64,000 bases of DNA from Ralstonia pickettii (GTDB lineage: Bacteria; Pseudomonadota; Gammaproteobacteria; Burkholderiales; Burkholderiaceae), in assembly GCF_001699815.1 (NCBI RefSeq), contig NZ_MCGB01000070.1:1-64000 (forward strand), read 5' to 3'. Position numbers and translations under genes: made by a program. Below the pieces are notes generated by a model, which saw only the letters and a list, made by a program, of their open reading frames with translations, searched no databases and was not told the origin of the DNA. Shown piece by piece: positions 3,416-13,696 of this stretch (its first letter is position 1; every line of letters starts with the position of its first letter).

Positions 3416-4042
3416 TTACCGCTTGAGCGCGGCTGCTTCCTTGGCGAGCGCCGTGATGCCTGCCCAGTCGCCGGCAGCGACCTTGTCCTTGGGCACCATC
3501 CATGAGCCGCCCACACACACCACGTTGGGCAGCGCGAGGTAGTCGGGCGCGCTTTGCGGCGTGATGCCGCCGGTCGGGCAGAAACGCACATCGCCGAACG
3601 GCCCGTAGATCGACTTGAGCATCGGGATGCCGCCAGCCGCTTCGGCCGGGAAGAACTTGAGCGTCGTCAGGCCGAACTCCAGCGCCAGGATCAGCTCGGA
3701 CGGCGTGGCGATGCCGGGCAGCCAGTCCAGTTCAGTCTTCCCCTGTGCCGCGGCCAGCATGGGCGTAATGCCCGGCGATACCGCAAACACCGCACCGGCA
3801 TCCTTCGCCTGCTGGAAATGCTCCGGCCGCGTGAGCGTGCCGGCACCGACGATGGCGTCGCTGCCCAGGTCCTTCACCACGGCCCGGATCACGTCCAGCG
3901 CTACCGGCGTGCGCATCGTGATCTCGAACGTGCGGATACCGCCCTCGTACAGCGCGCGGCACACCTTGACGCCTTCATCGACAGATTGGAACTGCAGCAC
4001 CGGGATGACCGGGCCGGCCTTGACGACGGAATCGATACCCAC
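3416..4042 (-). CDS. eda: 2-dehydro-3-deoxyphosphogluconate (KDPG) aldolase
   Basis: Cleaves KDPG to pyruvate and glyceraldehyde-3-phosphate. The 208-residue protein has the class I aldolase features of Eda: catalytic Glu40 in RTFEITMRTP, the VGAGTL strand, AVSPG, and Schiff-base Lys129 in TTLKFFPAEAAGG. It is the last gene of the leftward operon (RpiR, deacylase, RidA, GntP, Eda), 34 bases after gntP. No edd (6-phosphogluconate dehydratase) is present. The KDPG is instead expected from the KDG kinase at 9746-10672. Confidence 0.93.
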   Translation of the reverse strand: MGIDSVVKAGPVIPVLQFQSVDEGVKVCRALYEGGIRTFEITMRTPVALDVIRAVVKDLGSDAIVGAGTLTRPEHFQQAKDAGAVFAVSPGITPMLAAAQGKTELDWLPGIATPSELILALEFGLTTLKFFPAEAAGGIPMLKSIYGPFGDVRFCPTGGITPQSAPDYLALPNVVCVGGSWMVPKDKVAAGDWAGITALAKEAAALKR

Positions 4043-4076
4043 AACGTTCTCCTAGATCAACATCAACGGAACAAGC

Positions 4077-5429
4077 TTAAACGACGGTCGCCAGCGCCAG
4101 CGTGAGCAGCAGCGCGACGATCGAGATGATGGTTTCCAGCACCGTCCACGTCTTGAAGGTCTGCGGCACGGTCAGGTTGAAGTACTCCTTCACCAGCCAG
4201 AAGCCACCGTCGTTCACGTGCGACAGGATCAGCGACCCCGCGCCGGTGGCCAGCACCATCAGCTCCGGCTTGACGGCGGCGCCCGAGGCGGCGGCGATCG
4301 GGGCGACGATACCGCAGGCGGTCGTCATGGCCACCGTGGCCGAACCCGTAGCGATACGGATCAGCACGGCCACCACCCAGCCCAGCAGCAGCGGCGACAG
4401 ATGTGCATCGGTGGCGACGGCCACGATGGCCTTCGACACGCCCGAATCACGCAGGATCTGGCCGAAGCCGCCGCCCGCACCCACCACCAGCGTGATCGTG
4501 GCGATCGGTGCCAGACACTCGTTGGTGAACTTGAGGATGGTCTCGCGGTTGAAGCCGCGTGCCTTGCCGAACGTGTAGAAGCTCACGATGGCGGCAATCA
4601 GCAGGGCCATCACGGAGTTGCCGGCCAGCTTCAGGATGTCGTTTGCCAGCGTCTTGGGCGCGACGATCAGGTCGGCCCAGCTGCCGATCAGCATCAGCAC
4701 CACCGGCAGCAGGATCGTGAACAGCGTCACGCCAAAGCCCGGCAGCTCGCGCTTCTGGTCGGCTTCAACAAATTGGGCGGCCAGCGGGTTGTTTTCGTCC
4801 GGCTTGACGTAGCGCGAGACCAGCATCGCCCACAGCGGACCGGCCAGGATGGCAGTCGGCAGGCCGACGATCAGCGCATACATGATCGTCTTGCCGATGT
4901 CGGCCTGGTAAGCCGTCACGGCCAGCAGCGCGGCCGGGTGCGGGGGGATCAGGCCATGCACCACCGACAGACCGGCCACCATTGGCAGGCCCACCAGCAG
5001 GATCGGCGTACCCGTGCGCTTGGCCACGTTGAACGCAATCGGGATCAGCAGCACAAAGCCGACTTCAAAGAAGACCGGCAAGCCGATGATGAACGCCACG
5101 ACCATCATGGCCCAGTGCGCGTTCTTCTCGCCAAAGGCACTGATGAGCGTTTTGGCGATGCGCTCGGCACCCCCTGATTCCGCCATCATCTTGCCGAGCA
5201 TCGTCCCGAGGCCCACCACAAGGGCGATGTGGCCGAGCGTGTTGCCCACCCCGGTTTCGAACGCCTTGACGATGTTGCCCATCGGCATGCCAACTACCAC
5301 GCCCAGCACAAGCGAGACGACGATCAGCGTGACGAACGGGTTCAGTTTCTGGACAGCAATCAGGTAAATCAGTGCGACCACCGCTAGCGCGGCGGTCAGC
5401 AATAGCGAGTTGCCTTGCATCGGGACCAT
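4077..5429 (-). CDS. GntP-family gluconate-type permease
   Basis: A 450-residue inner-membrane transporter with about twelve hydrophobic segments. It carries the GntP family blocks VHGLIPPHPAALLAV and SHVNDGGFWLVKEYFNL, and the usual length. Family members take up gluconate, idonate, glycerate or D-serine by proton symport. Here the neighbours (deacylase, D-amino-acid deaminase, KDG kinase, Eda) suggest an aldonate carrying an amino or acylamino group, such as glucosaminate. That is inference. The start is supported by GAGGAGG seven bases before the ATG. Confidence 0.9.
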   Translation of the reverse strand: MVPMQGNSLLLTAALAVVALIYLIAVQKLNPFVTLIVVSLVLGVVVGMPMGNIVKAFETGVGNTLGHIALVVGLGTMLGKMMAESGGAERIAKTLISAFGEKNAHWAMMVVAFIIGLPVFFEVGFVLLIPIAFNVAKRTGTPILLVGLPMVAGLSVVHGLIPPHPAALLAVTAYQADIGKTIMYALIVGLPTAILAGPLWAMLVSRYVKPDENNPLAAQFVEADQKRELPGFGVTLFTILLPVVLMLIGSWADLIVAPKTLANDILKLAGNSVMALLIAAIVSFYTFGKARGFNRETILKFTNECLAPIATITLVVGAGGGFGQILRDSGVSKAIVAVATDAHLSPLLLGWVVAVLIRIATGSATVAMTTACGIVAPIAAASGAAVKPELMVLATGAGSLILSHVNDGGFWLVKEYFNLTVPQTFKTWTVLETIISIVALLLTLALATVV

Positions 5430-5509
5430 CGGGTTTCCTCCTCAGGGATATTCACGGCTCTTGTTGTCTGGGCGCCCCGTCGTGCAGGGCGCCTTTACGA
5501 AAATGCGGA

Positions 5510-5896
5510 TTACGGCTTCTTGTACGCCACGCAATCGACTTCAACCTTGCAGTCGATGACCATGCTCGACACCACGCAGGCGCGCGCGGGCGGGTTGGCA
5601 CCGAAGTACTCCTTGAACACCTTGTTGAACGACTGGAAGTCGCGCGGGTCATCCAGCCACACGCCACAGCGCACGACGTGCTCGGGCCCGTAGCCCGCTT
5701 CGGCCAGGATGGCGAGCACGTTCTTGATGGTCTGGTGCGATTGCTCGACGATGCCGTTGCCGACCACCTCGCCGTTCACCATGGGCGTCTGGCCCGAAAC
5801 GAACAGCCAGCCGTCTGCGCCGGCTGCGCGGGCAAAGGGGAGGTGCTGGCCACCGGTGCCGGTGCCGCCTTCAACGCCAATTCGGGTAATCGTCAT
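5510..5896 (-). CDS. RidA family enamine/imine deaminase
   Basis: A 128-residue cytosolic protein of the RidA/YjgF fold. It has FVSGQTP, the EQSHQTIKNVLAILAEAG helix, and the key Arg105 in PPARACVVSS that anchors the substrate carboxylate. RidA proteins hydrolyse reactive enamines and imines released by PLP-dependent dehydratases. Its place in an operon opposite a PLP-dependent deaminase fits that role. The ATG at 5896 follows AAGGA with an 8-base spacing. A longer open frame to 6052 overlaps the deacylase gene and is unlikely. Confidence 0.9.
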   Translation of the reverse strand: MTITRIGVEGGTGTGGQHLPFARAAGADGWLFVSGQTPMVNGEVVGNGIVEQSHQTIKNVLAILAEAGYGPEHVVRCGVWLDDPRDFQSFNKVFKEYFGANPPARACVVSSMVIDCKVEVDCVAYKKP

Positions 5897-5937
5897 CGCT
5901 ACGTTCCTTCTTTCAAACTTGCAAACAAAACTTGGAT

Positions 5938-7422
5938 TCAGTGAGTTTCCGCGGTCACAGCTGCGTGCGCACGGGGCCCACGCTTGAGGAAGCGGCCCGC
6001 CCGATGCGGCTGCACCGCGCCGTCCTGATATGACAGATGGCCGTTGACCCACACCGCCGCAATGCCCGCCGCCGGTTGCTGCGGGTCGGTAAAGGTGGCG
6101 ACATCGCGCACCGTTTCGGGGTCGAACAGCACGAGATCGGCCCAGTAGCCTTCACGCACCAGGCCGCGTTCGGTCAGGCCGAAACGCTCGGCGGACTGGC
6201 CTGTCATCTTGCGGATGGCGGCTGCGAGCGAGAGCAGCTTGCGCTCCCGGCTGTAGTAGCCGAGCACGCGCGGGAAGGCGCCCCACAGGCGCGGATGCGG
6301 CTTCGGATCGTTCGGCAGGCCATCGGAGCCGATGACGGTGGCGGGGTGGGTGATGATGCGGTCCAGATCCTGCGCGGACATGTTGTGGTACACGGCGCCG
6401 GCCGGCTGCAGGCGGCGCGCGGCGTCCACCAGGTCGGTGCCCCACGCGGCCGCAATCTCCTTGAGCGTCTGCCCGGCCATGCTGGGTTCGGGCTCCGACC
6501 ATGTGATGAAGATGTCGAATTCGTCCGTCACCTGCTTGAGGTCCAGCGTGGACGAGCTTGCGGTGTACGGATAGCAGTCGCAACCCACCGGCTGATAGCA
6601 CTGTGCACCTTCGATGGATTCCAGCACCTCGCCCGCGCGGCCCCAATTGGCAGCGCCTGCGCATTTCAGGTGTGAGATCACCACCGGCACGCGCGCATGT
6701 TTGCCGACGCGGTACGCCTCGTCCATCGCATCGAGAATCGCCGCAAATTCGGTGCGCAGATGCGTCGTGTAGATCGCGCCAGCTTCGGCCAGCGGCTCCG
6801 CCAGGCCCATCACTTCTTCGGTGGTCGACGCAAAGGCGTTGGCGTAGGCCAGGCCTGTCGACAGGCCGAGCGCGCCGTGGTCGAGCGCCTCGCGCAACTG
6901 TGCGCGCATGCCTTCAACCTCGCCAGCGGTGGCGGGGCGGTCGAGGCGGTCCAGATGGTTATTGCGCAGTGCCGTGTGCCCGACCAGCGCGGCAACGTTC
7001 ACAGCGGGTTGCGCGCGCTCGACGGCGTCCACGTACGATGCGAAGGTCGGGTACGCAAACGCGCTGGTAGGCCCCAGCAGGTTCATCGGATCGGGCGGCT
7101 CGCCCTTGAGCGTGGCCGGCGACGCGCTGATACCGCAGTTTCCGACGATGACCGTCGTAATGCCCTGTGACACCTTGCACAGCATGTCGGGCGTGCGGAT
7201 CACGTTGGTGTCGTCGTGCGTGTGCACGTCGATGAAGCCGGGGGCGAGGACGCGGCCTTCGCCAGCGATTTCCTCATCGCCCAGCCAGGCGGTGGAGTCC
7301 GATGTGGCGATGGCGGCGATGCGGCCGTCGGTGATGGCGACGTCGAACAGCGTGGCCTCGGGGTCGTGGCCGCTGCCGTCCACAATGCGGACCTGACGGA
7401 TGACGGTGTCGTACTGCTGCAT
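5938..7422 (-). CDS. N-acyl-D-amino-acid deacylase (D-aminoacylase family)
   Basis: A 494-residue zinc amidohydrolase. It has the metal motif FIDVHTHDD (His67, His69), the VGNCGIS loop with the metal-ligand Cys of D-aminoacylases, SHLKCAG, and IGSDGLPNDPKPHPRLWG with the catalytic Asp. Such enzymes remove N-acyl groups from D-configured amino acids. In this operon the likely substrate is an N-acylated D-amino sugar acid. That is inferred from the KDG kinase and KDPG aldolase partners. The start at 7422 has GGAG upstream and lies one base after the RpiR stop, suggesting translational coupling. Confidence 0.88.
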   Translation of the reverse strand: MQQYDTVIRQVRIVDGSGHDPEATLFDVAITDGRIAAIATSDSTAWLGDEEIAGEGRVLAPGFIDVHTHDDTNVIRTPDMLCKVSQGITTVIVGNCGISASPATLKGEPPDPMNLLGPTSAFAYPTFASYVDAVERAQPAVNVAALVGHTALRNNHLDRLDRPATAGEVEGMRAQLREALDHGALGLSTGLAYANAFASTTEEVMGLAEPLAEAGAIYTTHLRTEFAAILDAMDEAYRVGKHARVPVVISHLKCAGAANWGRAGEVLESIEGAQCYQPVGCDCYPYTASSSTLDLKQVTDEFDIFITWSEPEPSMAGQTLKEIAAAWGTDLVDAARRLQPAGAVYHNMSAQDLDRIITHPATVIGSDGLPNDPKPHPRLWGAFPRVLGYYSRERKLLSLAAAIRKMTGQSAERFGLTERGLVREGYWADLVLFDPETVRDVATFTDPQQPAAGIAAVWVNGHLSYQDGAVQPHRAGRFLKRGPRAHAAVTAETH

Positions 7423-7423
7423 G

Positions 7424-8317
7424 TCAATCTCCGAGCGGCTGACGATTGCCGCCGCCGCGATGCGCATCGAGCACGTACTTGATGCGCCGTAACAGTTCCT
7501 TGCTGCGATCGGCTTGCTGCAGTGCGACTTCGGTGGCCAGCAAGTCGATCATCATCATCATGGCGTAGCGCGATGACGACGGCTTGAAGATGAAATCGGT
7601 TTCCATGGCCTGGATCGGCAGCAAGACATCGGCCAGCGCCGCCAGCGGCGAGCCGATGGCCGTGATGGCGACGATCCTGGCGCCGTACTCGCGCGCGATG
7701 GTCACGCTGTCGATGACCTCCGGCACGTGGCCGGTCACGGAAAACACGACCACCACATCGTCCGGGCTGAGCGTGGCCGCGACCATCCGCTGCAGCATCG
7801 AATCATGATAGGTGGTGACCGGCCGTCCCAGGCGGGCCAGCCGGTAGCGCATTTCGTCGGCCATGGTGGTCGAGCCACCGCCCATGCCGAACACGGCAAT
7901 CATGCGCGCCGCCACCAGTGCGACGGCCGCGGCGCGGAATGCCTCCGGCTGCACCAGGGCGCGGTTGGCTTCCAGCACGTTGCTGATGTCGGCCAGGATG
8001 CCGTCTGCGCTGGACGGCGGGCGGTCCGCGCCGCCATCCAGAAAGCGCTGGCCGACTGCGGCTGCCTGCGCTAGCTTGAGCTTGAGTTCGCGCACGTCAC
8101 GGCAGCCCATCGCCTTGGCAAAACGGGTGACGCTAGCCTCACTCACGCCGGCGCGTTCGGCAAGCGTCTGGATGCTGCCGGCGGCGGCCTCCGCGATGTC
8201 GCTCAGGACGGTCTGCGCGACCTTCTGCTCGGCGGGGCGCAGTTCAGCGGCACGCTGGGAGAGTCGGGTCACGATGTCCATCGGTTCACGCATGGGGTCG
8301 GGCTTAGGGTCTCGCAT
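7424..8317 (-). CDS. RpiR/MurR family transcriptional regulator
   Basis: A 297-residue regulator with an N-terminal RpiR helix-turn-helix (AELRPAEQKVAQTVLSDIAE, then LAERAGVSEASVTRFAKAMG) and a C-terminal SIS sugar-phosphate-binding domain (FGMGGGSTTMADEM; VFSVTGHVPEVIDSV). Members sense phosphosugars such as KDPG. It is the first gene of the leftward catabolic operon and lies divergent to the deaminase gene. Two palindromes in the intergenic region (8362-8376, 8461-8475) are its candidate operators. An internal ATG at 8281 gives a more family-typical N-terminus of 285 residues. Confidence 0.9.
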   Translation of the reverse strand: MRDPKPDPMREPMDIVTRLSQRAAELRPAEQKVAQTVLSDIAEAAAGSIQTLAERAGVSEASVTRFAKAMGCRDVRELKLKLAQAAAVGQRFLDGGADRPPSSADGILADISNVLEANRALVQPEAFRAAAVALVAARMIAVFGMGGGSTTMADEMRYRLARLGRPVTTYHDSMLQRMVAATLSPDDVVVVFSVTGHVPEVIDSVTIAREYGARIVAITAIGSPLAALADVLLPIQAMETDFIFKPSSSRYAMMMMIDLLATEVALQQADRSKELLRRIKYVLDAHRGGGNRQPLGD

Positions 8318-8361
8318 TCTGGCCCCCGGTAGTCGTCCGGATAGCGGCTTTGAGAGTGTTT

Positions 8362-8376
8362 TGGTACTTTGTAACA
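8362..8376. promoter_or_regulatory. Candidate RpiR operator 1
   Basis: TGGTACTTTGTAACA is an imperfect palindrome of the form TGNTAC-N3-GTANCA, 45 bases ahead of the longest rpiR start. The same form recurs at 8461-8475, and the 13 bases TTGGTACTTTGTA recur there in inverted orientation without a mismatch. Assignment to the adjacent RpiR regulator is inference. Confidence 0.55.
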
Positions 8377-8455
8377 GGCTGGCCCGGAGAATAGTTTCGC
8401 CACTATCATTGTGTCAACCCGATGTTTACCCCCAAAGGAACACGAGTCGATTCCC

Positions 8456-9733
8456 ATGAGTGATACAAAGTACCAAGGAGACGCCAACGCTGTCGTCAAC
8501 CCGCTCGACAAGGGCTTGGGTGCGTTGGAAGCCGCATGCGCGCCGGAGCAGATCGCTGCCCAGCGCTGGAATGTATTGAACGAAGACCTGAACCTGCCCG
8601 CAGCGGTGCTCTCGCAATCCCGCGTGGAGCACAACCTGGCGTGGATGCAGCGCTTCGTGAGCGAATACGGCGCCAAACTCGCGCCGCATGGCAAGACGAC
8701 GATGGCGCCGCGCCTGTTCCAACGTCAGTTGGCCGGCGGTGCGTGGGGCATCACACTGGCAACGGCGCACCAGACGCGCATTGCGTACGCCCACGGCGTG
8801 CGTCGCGTGCTGATGGCCAACCAGCTGGTGGGCAAGCGCAACATGGCGATCCTCGCCGAGTTGCTGGCCGATCCGACGTTCGAATTCTTCTGCCTGGTGG
8901 ATGCGGCGGATCAGGTCGATCAGCTTGCTGCCTTCTTCGGTAAGACGGGGCGCCCGATCCAGGTGTTGATCGAACTGGGCGTGCAGGGCGGCCGCACGGG
9001 CGTGCGCGACGATGCGCAACTGCAATCGGTGCTCGATGCGCTCACGCGTGCCAATGGCGCCGTCAAACTCGCGGGCGTCGAAGTCTATGAAGGCGTGATC
9101 AAGGAAGAAGCGGATATCCGCACCTTCCTGCAGCGCGCCGTGAAGGTGATGGGTGATCTGGCAAAGGGCGGGCGCCTGCAACGCACGCCGGCCGTGCTGA
9201 CCGGTGCCGGTTCGGCTTGGTACGACGTCGTGGCCGAAGAGTTCGCCAAGGCCAATATCGGCCAGCCGTTGGATGTGGTGCTGCGCCCGGGCTGCTACCT
9301 GACGCACGACGTGGGCATCTACCGCGCGGCGCAGACCCGTATCGACGCCAACAACCCGATTGCGCACAAGATGCGTTCGAGCCTGCTGCCTGCGCTCCAG
9401 CTTTGGGCCTATGTGCAATCCGTGCCGGAGGCTGAGCGCGCCATCATCGCAATGGGCAAGCGTGACGCCGCATTCGACGCGGGTCTGCCACTGCCAGTGC
9501 TGCATTTCCGCCCAGGTGACAAGACGCCGTCAGCCACGCCGGCGCACTGGGAAGTCACCGGCATGATGGATCAGCATGCCTACCTGAAGATCGCCCCCGG
9601 CGACGACATCAAGGTCGGCGACATGATCGCCTTCGACATCTCGCACCCGTGCCTCACCTTCGACAAGTGGCGCCAGATTTCTGTCGTTGACGACGCCTAC
9701 AACGTGGTCGACGTTGTGCAGACCTACTTCTGA
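8456..9733 (+). CDS. PLP-dependent D-amino-acid deaminase (DSD1/D-threonine aldolase fold), possible glucosaminate dehydratase
   Basis: A 425-residue protein of the alanine-racemase-fold D-serine dehydratase/D-threonine aldolase family. PLP-binding Lys80 lies in KLAPHGKTTMAPRLF. The C-terminal beta domain keeps the HPC pair (SHPCLTFDKW) that binds the metal in D-serine dehydratases of this type. These enzymes eliminate water and ammonia from 2-amino-3-hydroxy acids of D configuration. D-glucosaminate has exactly that arrangement and would yield 2-keto-3-deoxygluconate, the substrate of the downstream kinase. That specificity is inference. The ATG at 8456 begins MSDTKYQ. Operator 2 overlaps its first codons. 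The kinase follows after 12 bases. Confidence 0.85.
   Translation: MSDTKYQGDANAVVNPLDKGLGALEAACAPEQIAAQRWNVLNEDLNLPAAVLSQSRVEHNLAWMQRFVSEYGAKLAPHGKTTMAPRLFQRQLAGGAWGITLATAHQTRIAYAHGVRRVLMANQLVGKRNMAILAELLADPTFEFFCLVDAADQVDQLAAFFGKTGRPIQVLIELGVQGGRTGVRDDAQLQSVLDALTRANGAVKLAGVEVYEGVIKEEADIRTFLQRAVKVMGDLAKGGRLQRTPAVLTGAGSAWYDVVAEEFAKANIGQPLDVVLRPGCYLTHDVGIYRAAQTRIDANNPIAHKMRSSLLPALQLWAYVQSVPEAERAIIAMGKRDAAFDAGLPLPVLHFRPGDKTPSATPAHWEVTGMMDQHAYLKIAPGDDIKVGDMIAFDISHPCLTFDKWRQISVVDDAYNVVDVVQTYF
8461..8475. promoter_or_regulatory. Candidate RpiR operator 2, inside the deaminase start
   Basis: TGATACAAAGTACCA matches the TGNTAC-N3-GTANCA form of operator 1 and occupies codons 2-7 of the deaminase gene. 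Centre-to-centre distance to operator 1 is 99 bases. A repressor bound here would block transcription or early elongation, and two sites allow looping. Binding is inferred. Confidence 0.5.
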
Positions 9734-9745
9734 GCGGGGCCGCCC

Positions 9746-10672
9746 ATGGCAGACATCCTCGCCTACGGCGAAGCGTTGATCGAATTCAACCAGGCGGATT
9801 CCGGCAGCACGTCGTGGAATTTCGGCTTCGGCGGCGATACGTCGAACTTCTGCATTGCCGCGGCACGGCAGGGCGCACGCACGGGCTACATCAGCGCGGT
9901 GGGCGCCGACCGCTTCGGCCAGGCGCTGCGCGGGCTGTGGCAGGACGAAGGCGTGGACCACACCTACGTGCACACCGACACGCAGGCGCCAACGGGCCTG
10001 TACTTCGTTTCGCACGATGCGCGTGGTCACCACTTTGACTACCTGCGCGCGGGCTCCGCAGCGAGCCGCTTCCAGACGGCGCAGTTGCCGTTGCAGGCGA
10101 TAGCGGCGGCCAAGGCGTTTCACCTGTCGGGGATCAGCCTGGCGATCAGCGATACCGCATGCGACGCCGGTTTGGCGGCGATGGCCCATGCGCGGGCGGC
10201 GGGTGTGCTCGTCTCGTTCGACACCAACCTGCGCTTGCGCCTGTGGCCGCTGGCGCGTGCCCGCGCCGTGATGCAGGAAGCGATGCGAACGTGCGATCTG
10301 TGCCTGCCGAGTTGGGATGACGTGACGGTGTTGCTCGACTGCCATGACCATGACGGCATTGTCGATACGCTGCTCGGCTGGGGCGTGAAGCTGGTGGCGC
10401 TCAAGATGGGCGCGGAAGGTTGCTATGTGGCCACACCGGAGTCCCGTACGCTGGTGCCGCGTCATACGGTCAATGCTGTCGATGCGACCGGCGCGGGGGA
10501 TTGTTTTGGTGGTGCGTTTGTGGCGCGGATTGTTGCCGGAGATTCGCCGGTAGAGGCGGCGCGGTATGCCAATGTGGCGGCTGCGATTTCTACAACGGGG
10601 TATAGCGCTGTGGCGCCGATTCCGCGGGCGGAGGTGGTGCGGGCGGCGTTGGGTCAAGTTCAGGCTGATTAG
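9746..10672 (+). CDS. kdgK: 2-keto-3-deoxygluconate kinase (PfkB family)
   Basis: A 308-residue ribokinase-family sugar kinase. It has the N-terminal GFGGDTSNFCIAAARQGA substrate loop typical of KDG kinases, DTNLRLRLWP, and the PfkB signature AVDATGAGDCFGGAF with catalytic Asp252. It phosphorylates KDG to KDPG, which the Eda of the opposite arm can cleave. It is twelve bases downstream of the deaminase and probably co-transcribed with it. Assignment as KDG kinase rather than another PfkB kinase rests on the substrate loop and on pathway context. Confidence 0.88.
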   Translation: MADILAYGEALIEFNQADSGSTSWNFGFGGDTSNFCIAAARQGARTGYISAVGADRFGQALRGLWQDEGVDHTYVHTDTQAPTGLYFVSHDARGHHFDYLRAGSAASRFQTAQLPLQAIAAAKAFHLSGISLAISDTACDAGLAAMAHARAAGVLVSFDTNLRLRLWPLARARAVMQEAMRTCDLCLPSWDDVTVLLDCHDHDGIVDTLLGWGVKLVALKMGAEGCYVATPESRTLVPRHTVNAVDATGAGDCFGGAFVARIVAGDSPVEAARYANVAAAISTTGYSAVAPIPRAEVVRAALGQVQAD

Positions 10673-10999: not shown

Positions 11000-13429
11000 T
11001 TACTTCCCCGGCACCAGATGCACGCGCGACTCGGTCGCCGCTTCCACCGCCTTGCGCGAATACAGCAGCGGGAAGTACTTGCCCTTGAGCCACAGCGGTG
11101 CCAGGTCGCGGTAGTGCGGGCTGTCGGGGTTGCCGGACTGGCCGGGCAGGTTGACGGCGCGCGAGTTGTCCCACTTGCCGACGTCCACCACCGTGCGGAA
11201 CGAGGGGCCGTTCGTCTGCAGGAAATCGCTCGCGCGATACGTGGATTGATTCGGCGTGTAGGGGCTGCCGCCTTCGGGGGTGGGGCCGACGTTGAGCTTG
11301 GCGCGCGTTGCCTCGTCGACGATGGCGGTGAACGGATGGGCGTTCAGGTTGTGATGCAGCTGGCCCCAGTTCCACGCTTGCGGGTTCGGGCCCTGGCGCT
11401 TGACCATGTCGGTCCACGCATTCTTCAGGCTGTCGAGCAGCACGGCATCGCGTTTGGCGGCGGCTTGCTGCGGGTCTTCGCCGAACTTGCGATCGCTGCC
11501 TTGCGGGTGCTCCAGCGTGTCGAGCATGACGTCGGTGTCGGGCGCGGCCATTGCTTCGGCGCTGGCCTTGGAAAGCACGGCGTTCTTGAATGCGCGGCCC
11601 AGGTGATGCGTGAACCAGACCTCATGCAGCGCGGCTTGCGGAGAATCCGCCAGCATGGTCGCGTTCCAGCCCTTGAACAGATTGAGCGCAGCCTGCGTGT
11701 CGGCGTCGTCGGACGACAGCGGCGCCAGCAGGGCCGTCAGCCTGCGCGCCGGGATCGACACCATGTCGTTCTGCAGGCGCATCGAATCTTCGATCGACAC
11801 TTTGTCCAGCTTGGACAGCACTTCGTCAATGCGTACGTGGCGCGAGCCGTTGGTCCACTCAAAGCCGAGTTTGCGTTCGCGGTACGGGTAATCCGCCGGC
11901 AGGTTCATCTCGTTGGACGAGGTGAAATAGCCGGACTTCGGGTTGTAGCTGCTGGGCAGTTGGTCGCCGCGCCAGAAGCCGGCCCATTCATAGCGGCCGT
12001 CCCCGGGCACTGGCAGCAGGCCGTCCCAGTTCGGGCGGATCGGGGCGAGGCCGCCCGGCACCCAGCCGATGTTGCCCTTCGTGTCTGCGTAGACCTGGTT
12101 TTCCGTAGGCGCACCCCAGTTCATCATGGACTGCCTGAACTGCGCGAACGTGCGTGCGCGCATGTAGCCGACCGAGCCGAAATAGGGTGACATGCCCGGC
12201 GACAGCCACGCGGAGCGCACGGCATACGCGCGGTGCTTCTCGGCATCGATGTAGATGACGGGGCCGTGGCGCGTGAAGGTCAGGTCGACGGGGCGGGATT
12301 CACCGCCGCGCACCTTCACGGTTTCGTGCAGCACGATGAAGGGCTCCCAGCCGCCGTTGTAGCGGTACTCGCCGTTGTTGGCCGGGTTCAGTTCGTAGAC
12401 GTACAGGTCTTCTTGGTCGATGTTGAAGATGGTCAGGCCAAACGCCACGTGCCCGTTGTGCCCGATCGACACGGCCGGCAGCGAGGGCTCGCCGGCGCCG
12501 ATGATGTCGAGCGTGGGCGTGCTGACATGGGCGATGTAGCGCAGGCTGGGTGCCGAATACGCGCGGTGCGGGTCGTTGGCCATCACGGCGCGGCCGGTGG
12601 TGGATTTGCCCGGCGCGATCACCCAGTTGTTGCTGCCCTCCATGGTCTCTTCAAGGTTGGCAGCGGCTGCCACGCGCGTGCTGTCGACGTCTACGCCCTT
12701 GAGGGATTCGGGCGTGAGGCGCGCGCCCTGCGTGGCAAGCGTGAAGACCCTCAGCAGATCCTTCGGCAGGCATGGGTCCAGGCCTTCGGGCAACTGGGTT
12801 TGCCAAGCGGGCTGCAGGCGGAAGCGGACGGTGTCGTCGGAAAGGTTGGCCTTGCAGGCCACGTTGGCACGTGCAACTTCCGATTGCAGATTGCGCGTCA
12901 GGCCGTGGCTGCGGATGCGCACCACGTCTTCCGGTGCCCAATGCGCGGGCGCGTAGTTGAGCTTGCGGAACTCGAACGGCATCTGCTCCGGATGCTTAGC
13001 CAGCCAGTCGACATACGCGTTGATGCCGGCCACGAAGCGCGTGGCAATGCGCTGCGCATCGGGGCTGTAGTGGTTCCATTCGACCTGCATGTCACCGCGA
13101 TAGAGGAACAGCCGCGTGGCGCGATCCTGTTCCACATAGGCCGGGCCGAACACTTCCGAAAGCTGACCCAGGCCCCGGCGGCGCCACAGGTCGATCTGGA
13201 ACAGGCGGTCTCGCGCGGCGTTGAAGCCTTGCGCGAAAAAGCCGTCGTCTTCGCTCCTGGCATAGATGTGCGGCACGCCCCAGCGGTCGATCAGGATGTC
13301 GGCGGGCTTTGACAGGCCGGGCACGGCGATGGTCTGGGCGGCAGCTGTGTGCGCATCCTTGGCAACGGCCTGCGCGGAAAACCCGAGTGCAACGGCAGAC
13401 AGCAGAATGGAAAGCGAACGGATAGGCAT
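11000..13429 (-). CDS. Penicillin acylase family protein, probable acyl-homoserine-lactone acylase
   Basis: An 809-residue Ntn-hydrolase precursor. A signal peptide (residues 1-23) is followed by the alpha chain (WGVPHIYARSEDDGFFAQGF; AARDRLFQIDLWRRRGLGQL). The autoproteolytic site is Gly265|Ser266 in EGSNNWVIAPGKS, where Ser266 becomes the N-terminal nucleophile of the beta chain. Typical beta-chain blocks follow (ANDPHRAYSAPS; GHNGHVAFGLT). Periplasmic enzymes of this size include AHL acylases such as AiiD, described from a Ralstonia isolate. Quorum-signal degradation is therefore the favoured guess, with beta-lactam or other amide cleavage as alternatives. The ATG at 13429 is preceded by GAGGAG. 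Monocistronic, ended by the terminator at 10951. Confidence 0.88.
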   Translation of the reverse strand: MPIRSLSILLSAVALGFSAQAVAKDAHTAAAQTIAVPGLSKPADILIDRWGVPHIYARSEDDGFFAQGFNAARDRLFQIDLWRRRGLGQLSEVFGPAYVEQDRATRLFLYRGDMQVEWNHYSPDAQRIATRFVAGINAYVDWLAKHPEQMPFEFRKLNYAPAHWAPEDVVRIRSHGLTRNLQSEVARANVACKANLSDDTVRFRLQPAWQTQLPEGLDPCLPKDLLRVFTLATQGARLTPESLKGVDVDSTRVAAAANLEETMEGSNNWVIAPGKSTTGRAVMANDPHRAYSAPSLRYIAHVSTPTLDIIGAGEPSLPAVSIGHNGHVAFGLTIFNIDQEDLYVYELNPANNGEYRYNGGWEPFIVLHETVKVRGGESRPVDLTFTRHGPVIYIDAEKHRAYAVRSAWLSPGMSPYFGSVGYMRARTFAQFRQSMMNWGAPTENQVYADTKGNIGWVPGGLAPIRPNWDGLLPVPGDGRYEWAGFWRGDQLPSSYNPKSGYFTSSNEMNLPADYPYRERKLGFEWTNGSRHVRIDEVLSKLDKVSIEDSMRLQNDMVSIPARRLTALLAPLSSDDADTQAALNLFKGWNATMLADSPQAALHEVWFTHHLGRAFKNAVLSKASAEAMAAPDTDVMLDTLEHPQGSDRKFGEDPQQAAAKRDAVLLDSLKNAWTDMVKRQGPNPQAWNWGQLHHNLNAHPFTAIVDEATRAKLNVGPTPEGGSPYTPNQSTYRASDFLQTNGPSFRTVVDVGKWDNSRAVNLPGQSGNPDSPHYRDLAPLWLKGKYFPLLYSRKAVEAATESRVHLVPGK

Positions 13430-13696
13430 GGCGATGCAGTCTCCTCTCTGAGCCCGGAATGCCAGCGCAGCCCAGATGGGCAACTAGGTTCAGGCGTTCT
13501 TATGGATGCAGCAGACAACCGCGAGCGCGGCTGATGGGAAGGGCAAGCTAGCCGATCGTGTGAGCGGGTGCTGGCAACAGCTAGGGGAGAGATGCCCACC
13601 GATCGGCACAGGCCTATGAGTATGCGGATGCGCCGCCACTTGCGCCAATGACTTTTGTTCAGTCAACCATTCCGTCACGGCATGGTTGCCGATGTG

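Follow-up and report, generated by a model that had tools for sequence, protein, structure and literature searches.

Substrate and Proposed Pathway of the Cluster

Which substrate is served by seven neighbouring genes of Ralstonia pickettii, whose products include a D-aminoacylase-type deacylase and a D-amino acid deaminase beside a kinase and an aldolase for 2-keto-3-deoxy sugar acids, is the question raised by the stretch of 64,000 nucleotides analysed here (the window), which lies on contig C70 of a genome of 5.24 Mb. The cluster lies at positions 3416–10672, with five open reading frames (ORFs) on the minus strand and two divergent ones on the plus strand, as shown in Table 1, and it most probably serves the breakdown of N-acetyl-D-glucosaminate (GlcNAc1A) imported from the surroundings. 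An interpretation made earlier from the letters of the sequence (the sequence-only reading) had placed seven genes here and named their families (GntP, deacylase, pyridoxal phosphate (PLP)-dependent deaminase, RidA, kinase, aldolase and RpiR); all seven ORFs were recovered at these places in the divergent arrangement, and the families of all seven products were confirmed by Pfam/NCBIfam profile matches.

In the proposed pathway, GntP would import GlcNAc1A, the OngB-like amidohydrolase would remove acetate, as suggested by its specificity residues, and the OngC-like PLP enzyme would eliminate ammonia from D-glucosaminate to give 2-keto-3-deoxygluconate (KDG), with RidA presumably taking part as it is required to do in the known system. 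The PfkB kinase would then convert KDG to 2-keto-3-deoxy-6-phosphogluconate (KDPG), which Eda would split into pyruvate and glyceraldehyde-3-phosphate, and RpiR would repress both divergent operons via a predicted operator pair, one site being intergenic and the other placed in the first codons of the deaminase gene. The choice of substrate rests on homology, and we infer the transport by GntP, the order of the steps, and the repression with its effector.

The nearest known system is the ong cluster of Pseudoalteromonas prydzensis ACAM 620, which was characterised by genetics and biochemistry (Jiang et al. 2022, PMC9537276). According to the sections of that paper used here, N-acetyl-D-glucosaminate is converted to D-glucosaminate and acetate, then to KDG and ammonia, and then to KDPG, with OngB deacetylating GlcNAc1A, OngC deaminating the product, KdgK phosphorylating KDG, OngR acting as the repressor and the SSS symporter OngIT being required for uptake. 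The cluster of P. neustonica, whose OngB is 88% identical to that of P. prydzensis (PpOngB), was used as the stand-in for ACAM 620. An ong cluster has been defined by at least four co-occurring ong homologs with E < 1e-5 and more than 30% identity (PMC9537276), and in the window the deacetylase (54%), RidA (68%), deaminase (46%) and RpiR protein (45%) all match the P. neustonica cluster with E ≤ 5e-61. These four proteins (D-aminoacylase-like deacetylase, fold-type III PLP deaminase, RidA and RpiR) make up a core common to both clusters, which also share a PfkB kinase gene, a predicted operator upstream of the deaminase gene and the inferred chemistry. The window differs in that GntP stands in place of the SSS symporter OngIT, the TonB receptor and OngA-type GH20 of the ong cluster are found neither among the annotated genes in nor among those beside the cluster, eda lies inside the operon, the layout is divergent, the kinase is distant from KdgK of P. 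neustonica (28% identity), and AA10, GH18 and GH20 have no match in the genome.

Specificity Signature of the Deacetylase

Ser292 and Gln298 of PpOngB, whose structure has been solved, have been described as key residues separating GlcNAc1A deacetylases from D-aminoacylases, and PpOngB itself displayed no detectable activity on N-acetyl-D-amino acids (PMC12017989). In the alignment, Ser304, Ser305, Ser306 and Gln312 of the window deacetylase correspond to Ser290, Ser291, Ser292 and Gln298 of PpOngB, all ten catalytic, metal or anchor residues tested are conserved, and Ala193 and Ala256 are likewise preserved. The D-aminoacylases AfDam (1m7j) and BbDam (3gip) resemble the window protein in fold, metal site and catalytic Asp, but lack the Ser292/Gln298 pair and are inactive on GlcNAc1A, according to the same source (PMC12017989); they pair Thr292 with Leu298 (AfDam) or Arg298 (BbDam), where the window has Ser and Gln. 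At the Gln298 position of AfDam, the structural comparison gives Leu (PMC12017989) and our sequence alignment gives Arg, the signature being absent either way. In the family sample described below, the Gln298 equivalent was observed in 73/73 orthologs and 0/15 paralogs, and the Ser292 equivalent in 66/73 and 1/15, respectively. Together with the homologous ong cluster, these residues support the route from N-acyl-D-glucosaminate via glucosaminate and KDG to KDPG that the sequence-only reading had put forward.

Among PDB sequences, the window deacetylase matches 9g5m best (663 bits), followed by PpOngB (554), AfDam (435) and BbDam (383). The entries 9g5m and 9gv8, named just 'Amidohydrolase family protein', carry the same Ser/Gln motif as the window deacetylase, and the 9g5m sequence resembles, by eye, that of Klebsiella locus L098; they are perhaps an unrecognised GlcNAc1A deacetylase.

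Linkage and Distribution across Genomes

Differential conservation of the neighbourhood was observed among 120 genomes of the same family, evenly drawn and searched with an ortholog threshold of E ≤ 1e-60. Of these genomes, 76 have the deaminase and 73 an ortholog of the deacetylase, with the deaminase lying within 7.5 kb of the ortholog at 72 of the 73 loci; in the sole unlinked case (G017) the two genes are on different contigs, and three genomes (G038, G048 and G072) contain a deaminase without a deacetylase. The other neighbours at the 73 loci were RidA (64), RpiR (62), GntP (24), kdgK (19), eda (19), a DGOK/DgoA pair (2) and an SSS symporter (1), whereas none of these neighbours occurred within about 6 kb on each side of the 15 deacetylase paralogs. 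The linkage of deacetylase and deaminase is not due to chance, because 72/73 orthologs and 0/15 paralogs carry the deaminase nearby. The full seven-gene set is present in all ten sampled genomes of the window's genus and all nine of Cupriavidus, and is not present in the remaining 54 of the 73 family clusters.

Beyond the family sample, a class-wide search with a limit of E ≤ 1e-150 returned the deacetylase in at least 4 of the 368 other genomes, a lower bound since at most four candidates were scored per genome; these four and the loci of the best 80 of 388 relatives, all from named records, give 84 loci, of which 13 are cut off less than 7 kb from the deacetylase on one side, so that missing neighbours may be off the contig. 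The Ser and Gln pair was found in 72 of the 84, with a deaminase near 56 of these, and four of the 12 loci without the pair also have a deaminase nearby. In these four (L124, L125, L129 and L133) the deaminase adjoins a deacylase with Thr in combination with His, Tyr or Leu, possibly representing a sister pathway for another N-acyl-D-amino acid. Separately, eleven Pseudomonas loci (L078, L083–L087, L089, L092, L093, L097 and L100) show the order gntP-rpiR-deacetylase with the full signature, and neither a deaminase nor ridA was detected near them (L089 ends early on one side); some other enzyme may deaminate there.

Deaminase and RidA

The window deaminase carries both Ala_racemase_N (PF01168) and D-ser_dehydrat (PF14031), the domain pair of DSD1/DTA fold-type III enzymes, and is 98% identical to the deaminase of Ralstonia sp. 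NFACC01. Lys80, His397 and Cys399, which we take to have PLP and zinc roles, are invariant across the 11 aligned deaminases, the window's included. The structure 3gwq, deposited as 'D-serine deaminase' with no mention of glucosaminate in its name, matches the window protein over nearly its full length (608 bits). A second, distant protein with a D-ser_dehydrat domain is encoded in the same genome (L001:706-1875, contig C16 of G000). A deaminase tree was built with 76 rows after a 209-residue fragment (L124) had been dropped, the outgroup being too distant for rooting; the tree alone does not prove one substrate, because the deaminases of L125, L129 and L133, from loci without the deacetylase signature, fall within the sampled group. 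By hand comparison of stereochemistry, the C2/C3 arrangement of D-glucosaminate is that of D-threonine, which suits a β-eliminase of D-amino acids; D-galactosaminate has the same arrangement, and C4 is therefore fixed only by the downstream enzymes. A described ammonia-eliminating enzyme acting on glucosaminate 6-phosphate performs a similar elimination step, but on a phosphorylated substrate, unlike here. As for RidA, the handling of an enamine intermediate put forward by the sequence-only reading is a possible role; its counterpart OngD is essential in P. prydzensis, where the text used gives its role as not known (PMC9537276).

Lineage Variants of Permease, Kinase and Aldolase

The window permease resembles gluconate transporters (PRK14984, 430 bits) more than D-serine transporters (DsdX, 338.5 bits). 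Among the 72 signature loci, GntP was near 30, an SSS symporter near 22, neither near 20 and both near none, while GH20 of at least 150 bits was near five, all five with SSS. The labels of the P. neustonica, Vibrio, Gilvimarinus and Klebsiella query genes were checked with Pfam (GH20, SSF, TonB plug/barrel, DGOK and KDPG-type aldolase), the TonB plug and barrel query being split across two ORFs in L119.

PfkB kinases, some with Eda, adjoin the deacetylase-deaminase pair in several lineages, and a DGOK kinase with a DgoA-type aldolase is found instead in four enterobacterial loci, one Paraburkholderia locus and one Lentisphaerales locus. Such varied kinds of kinase and aldolase beside the same pair would be expected if the product is a 2-keto-3-deoxyhexonate. 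The DGOK/DgoA clusters (L098:13413-14874, L082, L091, L095, L070 and L117) could reflect a galacto substrate or mere substitution. The window and P. neustonica kinases fit different NCBIfam models best, and the P. neustonica and Vibrio kinases (261 and 373 bits) likewise fall under the NF052444 cut-off. With 237 bits, the cluster eda is the sole strong KDPG aldolase detected in the genome (a second PF01081 match reaches 94 bits), and edd is present; eda is therefore likely to work in the Entner-Doudoroff route as well, which qualifies the description 'self-contained' that the sequence-only reading had given to the cluster.

Host Genome and Source of the Substrate

Several chitin-related families were sought in the host genome. 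The AA10 lytic polysaccharide monooxygenase (LPMO; PF03067) had no match in it and none in the ten sampled genomes of the genus, its own included; GH20 (PF00728, the OngA family) and GH18 were also without a match, and own oxidative chitin degradation was set aside. The route via N-acetylglucosamine 6-phosphate was set aside as well, the best NagA match (21.7 bits) lying under the cut-off of 225.65, and so was glucosamine oxidation by the membrane pyrroloquinoline quinone (PQQ) glucose dehydrogenase, whose best match of 114.5 bits is under the cut-off of 832.65. No TonB receptor occurs among the nine annotated proteins at 2.6–13.5 kb, no genome-wide search for TonB receptors having been made. 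Since the genome has no match for the tested chitin-oxidising and -hydrolysing families, the substrate is probably scavenged, and the cluster looks like a scavenging version rather than a chitin-oxidation pathway. Across the family, an AA10 LPMO was detected in 12 of the 73 genomes with a deacetylase ortholog.

Evidence against the Assignment and Alternative Substrates

Several observations count against GlcNAc1A as the substrate. Thr, as in D-aminoacylases, occupies position 292 in 7/73 orthologs (six of genus g25 and one of g18), and position 348, Gly in PpOngB, is Asn in the window deacetylase. No deaminase was detected near 16 of the 72 signature loci, and neither kdgK nor eda was detected nearby in 54 of the 73 family clusters. 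The window kinase, besides its low identity to KdgK, scores 184.5 bits against NF040938 (KDG/2-keto-3-deoxygalactonate kinase) and 152 against NF052444, both with cut-offs of 400. No published demonstration of GntP carrying GlcNAc1A was found, and the C4 epimer (galacto) is compatible with the sequence. OngC of P. prydzensis, moreover, is reported to deaminate D-serine and D-threonine as well (PMC9537276), and the substrate can therefore not be told from the deaminase alone.

That last property would fit an ordinary catabolism of N-acyl-D-amino acids, in which D-serine or D-threonine is released by the deacylase and turned into the 2-keto acid by the deaminase, RidA clears the enamine, and the kinase and aldolase serve only the Entner-Doudoroff route. 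The families in the cluster are indeed those of D-amino acid enzymes, the four loci combining a deaminase with a deacylase without the Ser/Gln signature show that such a pairing occurs, and the single strong KDPG aldolase together with edd agrees with Entner-Doudoroff use. We nevertheless consider this explanation improbable, as the window deacylase bears the GlcNAc1A signature and not the Thr/Leu or Thr/Arg of D-aminoacylases, PpOngB lacks detectable activity toward N-acetyl-D-amino acids, the operon holds a PfkB kinase with a KDG/2-keto-3-deoxygalactonate kinase as its best model, and the permease is gluconate-like; the D-serine pathway was set aside on the signature residues and the permease.

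The possibility that the substrate is the C4 epimer N-acetyl-D-galactosaminate (GalNAc1A), degraded via 2-keto-3-deoxygalactonate, is regarded as quite unlikely. It draws on Klebsiella, Raoultella, Buttiauxella and Leclercia, where KdgK and Eda give way to DGOK (PF05035) and a DgoA-type aldolase (NF006600, cut-off 207), which in Klebsiella score 306 and 302 bits, respectively, and on the bifunctional model that fits the window kinase best, though under its cut-off. Glu226, the C4-hydroxyl contact in PpOngB, is kept in AfDam too and is hence not diagnostic. The window aldolase is a canonical Eda, scoring 278 bits as such against 99 for DgoA, the Vibrio L101 and Photobacterium L079 clusters carry Eda and KdgK (Vibrio L090 shows neither), and GlcNAc1A is a proven substrate of the P. 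prydzensis enzymes, GalNAc1A not being named as tested in the sections used (PMC9537276). Very unlikely, lastly, is free D-glucosaminate from periplasmic glucosamine oxidation as the main natural substrate with deacetylation as a side activity, for which deaminase, kinase and aldolase would suffice and which recalls the glucosaminate annotation of Cupriavidus genes in earlier genome papers (PMC2842291, PMC3734047), but which is opposed by the sub-threshold PQQ glucose dehydrogenase and by the tie of deacetylase to deaminase in 72/73 family genomes.

Predicted Operator Pair

Of 91 divergent rpiR-dsd regions (58 belonging to the family and 33 others), 79 contain a palindrome within two mismatches of the consensus TGTTACNNNGTAACA, against about 1% of shuffles. 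Because this consensus was derived from part of the same regions, its frequency in them is partly circular, which does not apply to the shuffle control or to the P. neustonica site. With duplicates removed, 87 regions remain, and 75 of these match within two mismatches, related genomes being non-independent. A refined pattern, itself partly modelled on the site at 8362–8376, gives two matches with at most two mismatches in the 64 kb, at 8362–8376 and 8461–8475, where 0.02 are expected.

The second site coincides with a start peptide (T/I)-(K/N)-Y-(Q/H), present at the embedded site in 73 of the 91 regions, with codon 4 almost always a rare one, being ACA in 63, ATA in nine and ACT in one of them. 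In a subset of 78 regions, 63 have Thr in the motif, encoded by ACA in 63/63 cases compared with 4% of Thr codons in the rest of the genes, and 62 of the 63 embedded sites lie within three mismatches where synonymous resampling expects about seven. A protein role may add to the conservation of the start peptide, because a similar peptide occurs in L050–L052, where no DNA site was found. The spacings of the two sites cluster near 87, 99, 111, 121 and 132 bp, in steps of about 11 bp, and one region has the embedded site itself as its best match (spacing 0); phasing of the pair is suggestive only (p 0.013 from 13 non-independent genus-spacing pairs).

At non-divergent rpiR/dsd loci, 3/31 regions upstream of dsd and 0/11 upstream of gntP match within two mismatches, and the operator is therefore not universal. 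In P. neustonica, the stretch from the TonB receptor gene to ongC holds two sites (one and two mismatches) and the surroundings of ongIT hold none, in agreement with the published OngR regulon of P. prydzensis, in which the regulator is reported to act at ongOT-1/ongC (PMC9537276); other two-mismatch sites are located inside ongC and in flanking genes beyond the cluster.

Coordinates of the Cluster

The ORF of the deacetylase opens at 7467, where it would overlap rpiR; its start is likely the ATG at 7422 (MQQYDT), with GGAGA just upstream.

Table 1. Features of the Ralstonia pickettii cluster, with positions in the window and the evidence for each.
Feature	Position	Strand	Evidence
eda, KDPG aldolase	3416..4042	-	PRK05718 277.7 bits (cut-off 241); TIGR01182 248.7 (cut-off 156)
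gntP, GntP-family permease, proposed N-acetyl-D-glucosaminate importer	4077..5429	-	TIGR00791 498.8 bits (cut-off 292.75)
ridA (OngD-like)	5510..5896	-	PF01042 (Ribonuc_L-PSP); 68% identity to P. neustonica cluster RidA
OngB-like N-acetyl-D-glucosaminate deacetylase	5938..7422	-	Amidohydro_3; 54% identity to PpOngB, 45% to AfDam
RpiR-family regulator (OngR-like)	7424..8317	-	HTH_6 and SIS; 45% identity to P. neustonica regulator
Predicted operator 1, TGGTACTTTGTAACA	8362..8376		15-bp palindrome, rpiR-deaminase intergenic region
OngC-like fold-type III PLP D-glucosaminate deaminase (DSD1-type)	8456..9733	+	PF14031 and PF01168; 46% identity to P. neustonica OngC
Predicted operator 2	8461..8475		Within codons 2-7 of the deaminase gene; refined-pattern match
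PfkB-family kinase, proposed KDG kinase	9746..10672	+	PF00294; best NCBIfam model NF040938

Adjoining the cluster, positions 11000–13483 encode a penicillin-acylase family protein (PF01804, 2e-204) with weak similarity to PvdQ, possibly an acyl-homoserine-lactone acylase.

Relation to Earlier Work and Significance

The central idea of a glucosaminate pathway is already known, because of the ong work and of earlier annotations in Cupriavidus; the assignment of a DSD1-type enzyme as a glucosaminate dehydratase, put forward by the sequence-only reading, was anticipated by the publication of OngC in 2022 (PMC9537276) and by annotations from 2010 and 2013. On the strength of a glucosaminate deaminase and a KDG kinase, the C. 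necator JMP134 paper predicted that Cupriavidus/Ralstonia use glucosaminate; it noted such genes in the other strains of these genera and stated that no evaluation of glucosaminate use had yet been made (PMC2842291), and in C. necator H16 the glucosaminate genes are H16_B1211-B1213 (PMC3734047). The consulted portions of both accounts do not tie the deacetylase, permease, RidA or regulator to these genes. Neither the GntP form lacking an LPMO of its own nor the exchanges of kinase nor the pair of operators turned up in the literature searched, operators not having been searched for as such; the word GntP is absent from the main text of PMC9537276, and the search for GntP with GlcNAc1A or glucosaminate returned a Bacillus cereus paper that, in the part available, has GntP and glucosaminate (PMC4896439). 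New here is the 15-bp predicted operator common to Ralstonia and Pseudoalteromonas, with a second copy in the first codons of the deaminase gene.

We offer as an evenly balanced proposal that RpiR acts via two operators phased at about 11 bp, the second in codons 2–7 of the deaminase gene, and that Burkholderiaceae commonly carry the GlcNAc1A pathway mostly without their own LPMO, in some genera fed by GntP, scavenging the oxidised chitin sugars of others; if true, codons 2–7 would work for the protein and the regulator alike. The assignment points to likely functions for genes that usually bear the label D-aminoacylase or D-serine/D-amino acid deaminase, and the predicted site gives OngR an operator that can be tested. 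With an OngB ortholog in 73/120 genomes, a pathway known from chitin-oxidising, mainly marine gammaproteobacteria is extended to another large family, and the presence of an AA10 LPMO in so few of these genomes sets use of the oxidised sugar apart from its production and suggests that oxidised chitin supports cross-feeding.

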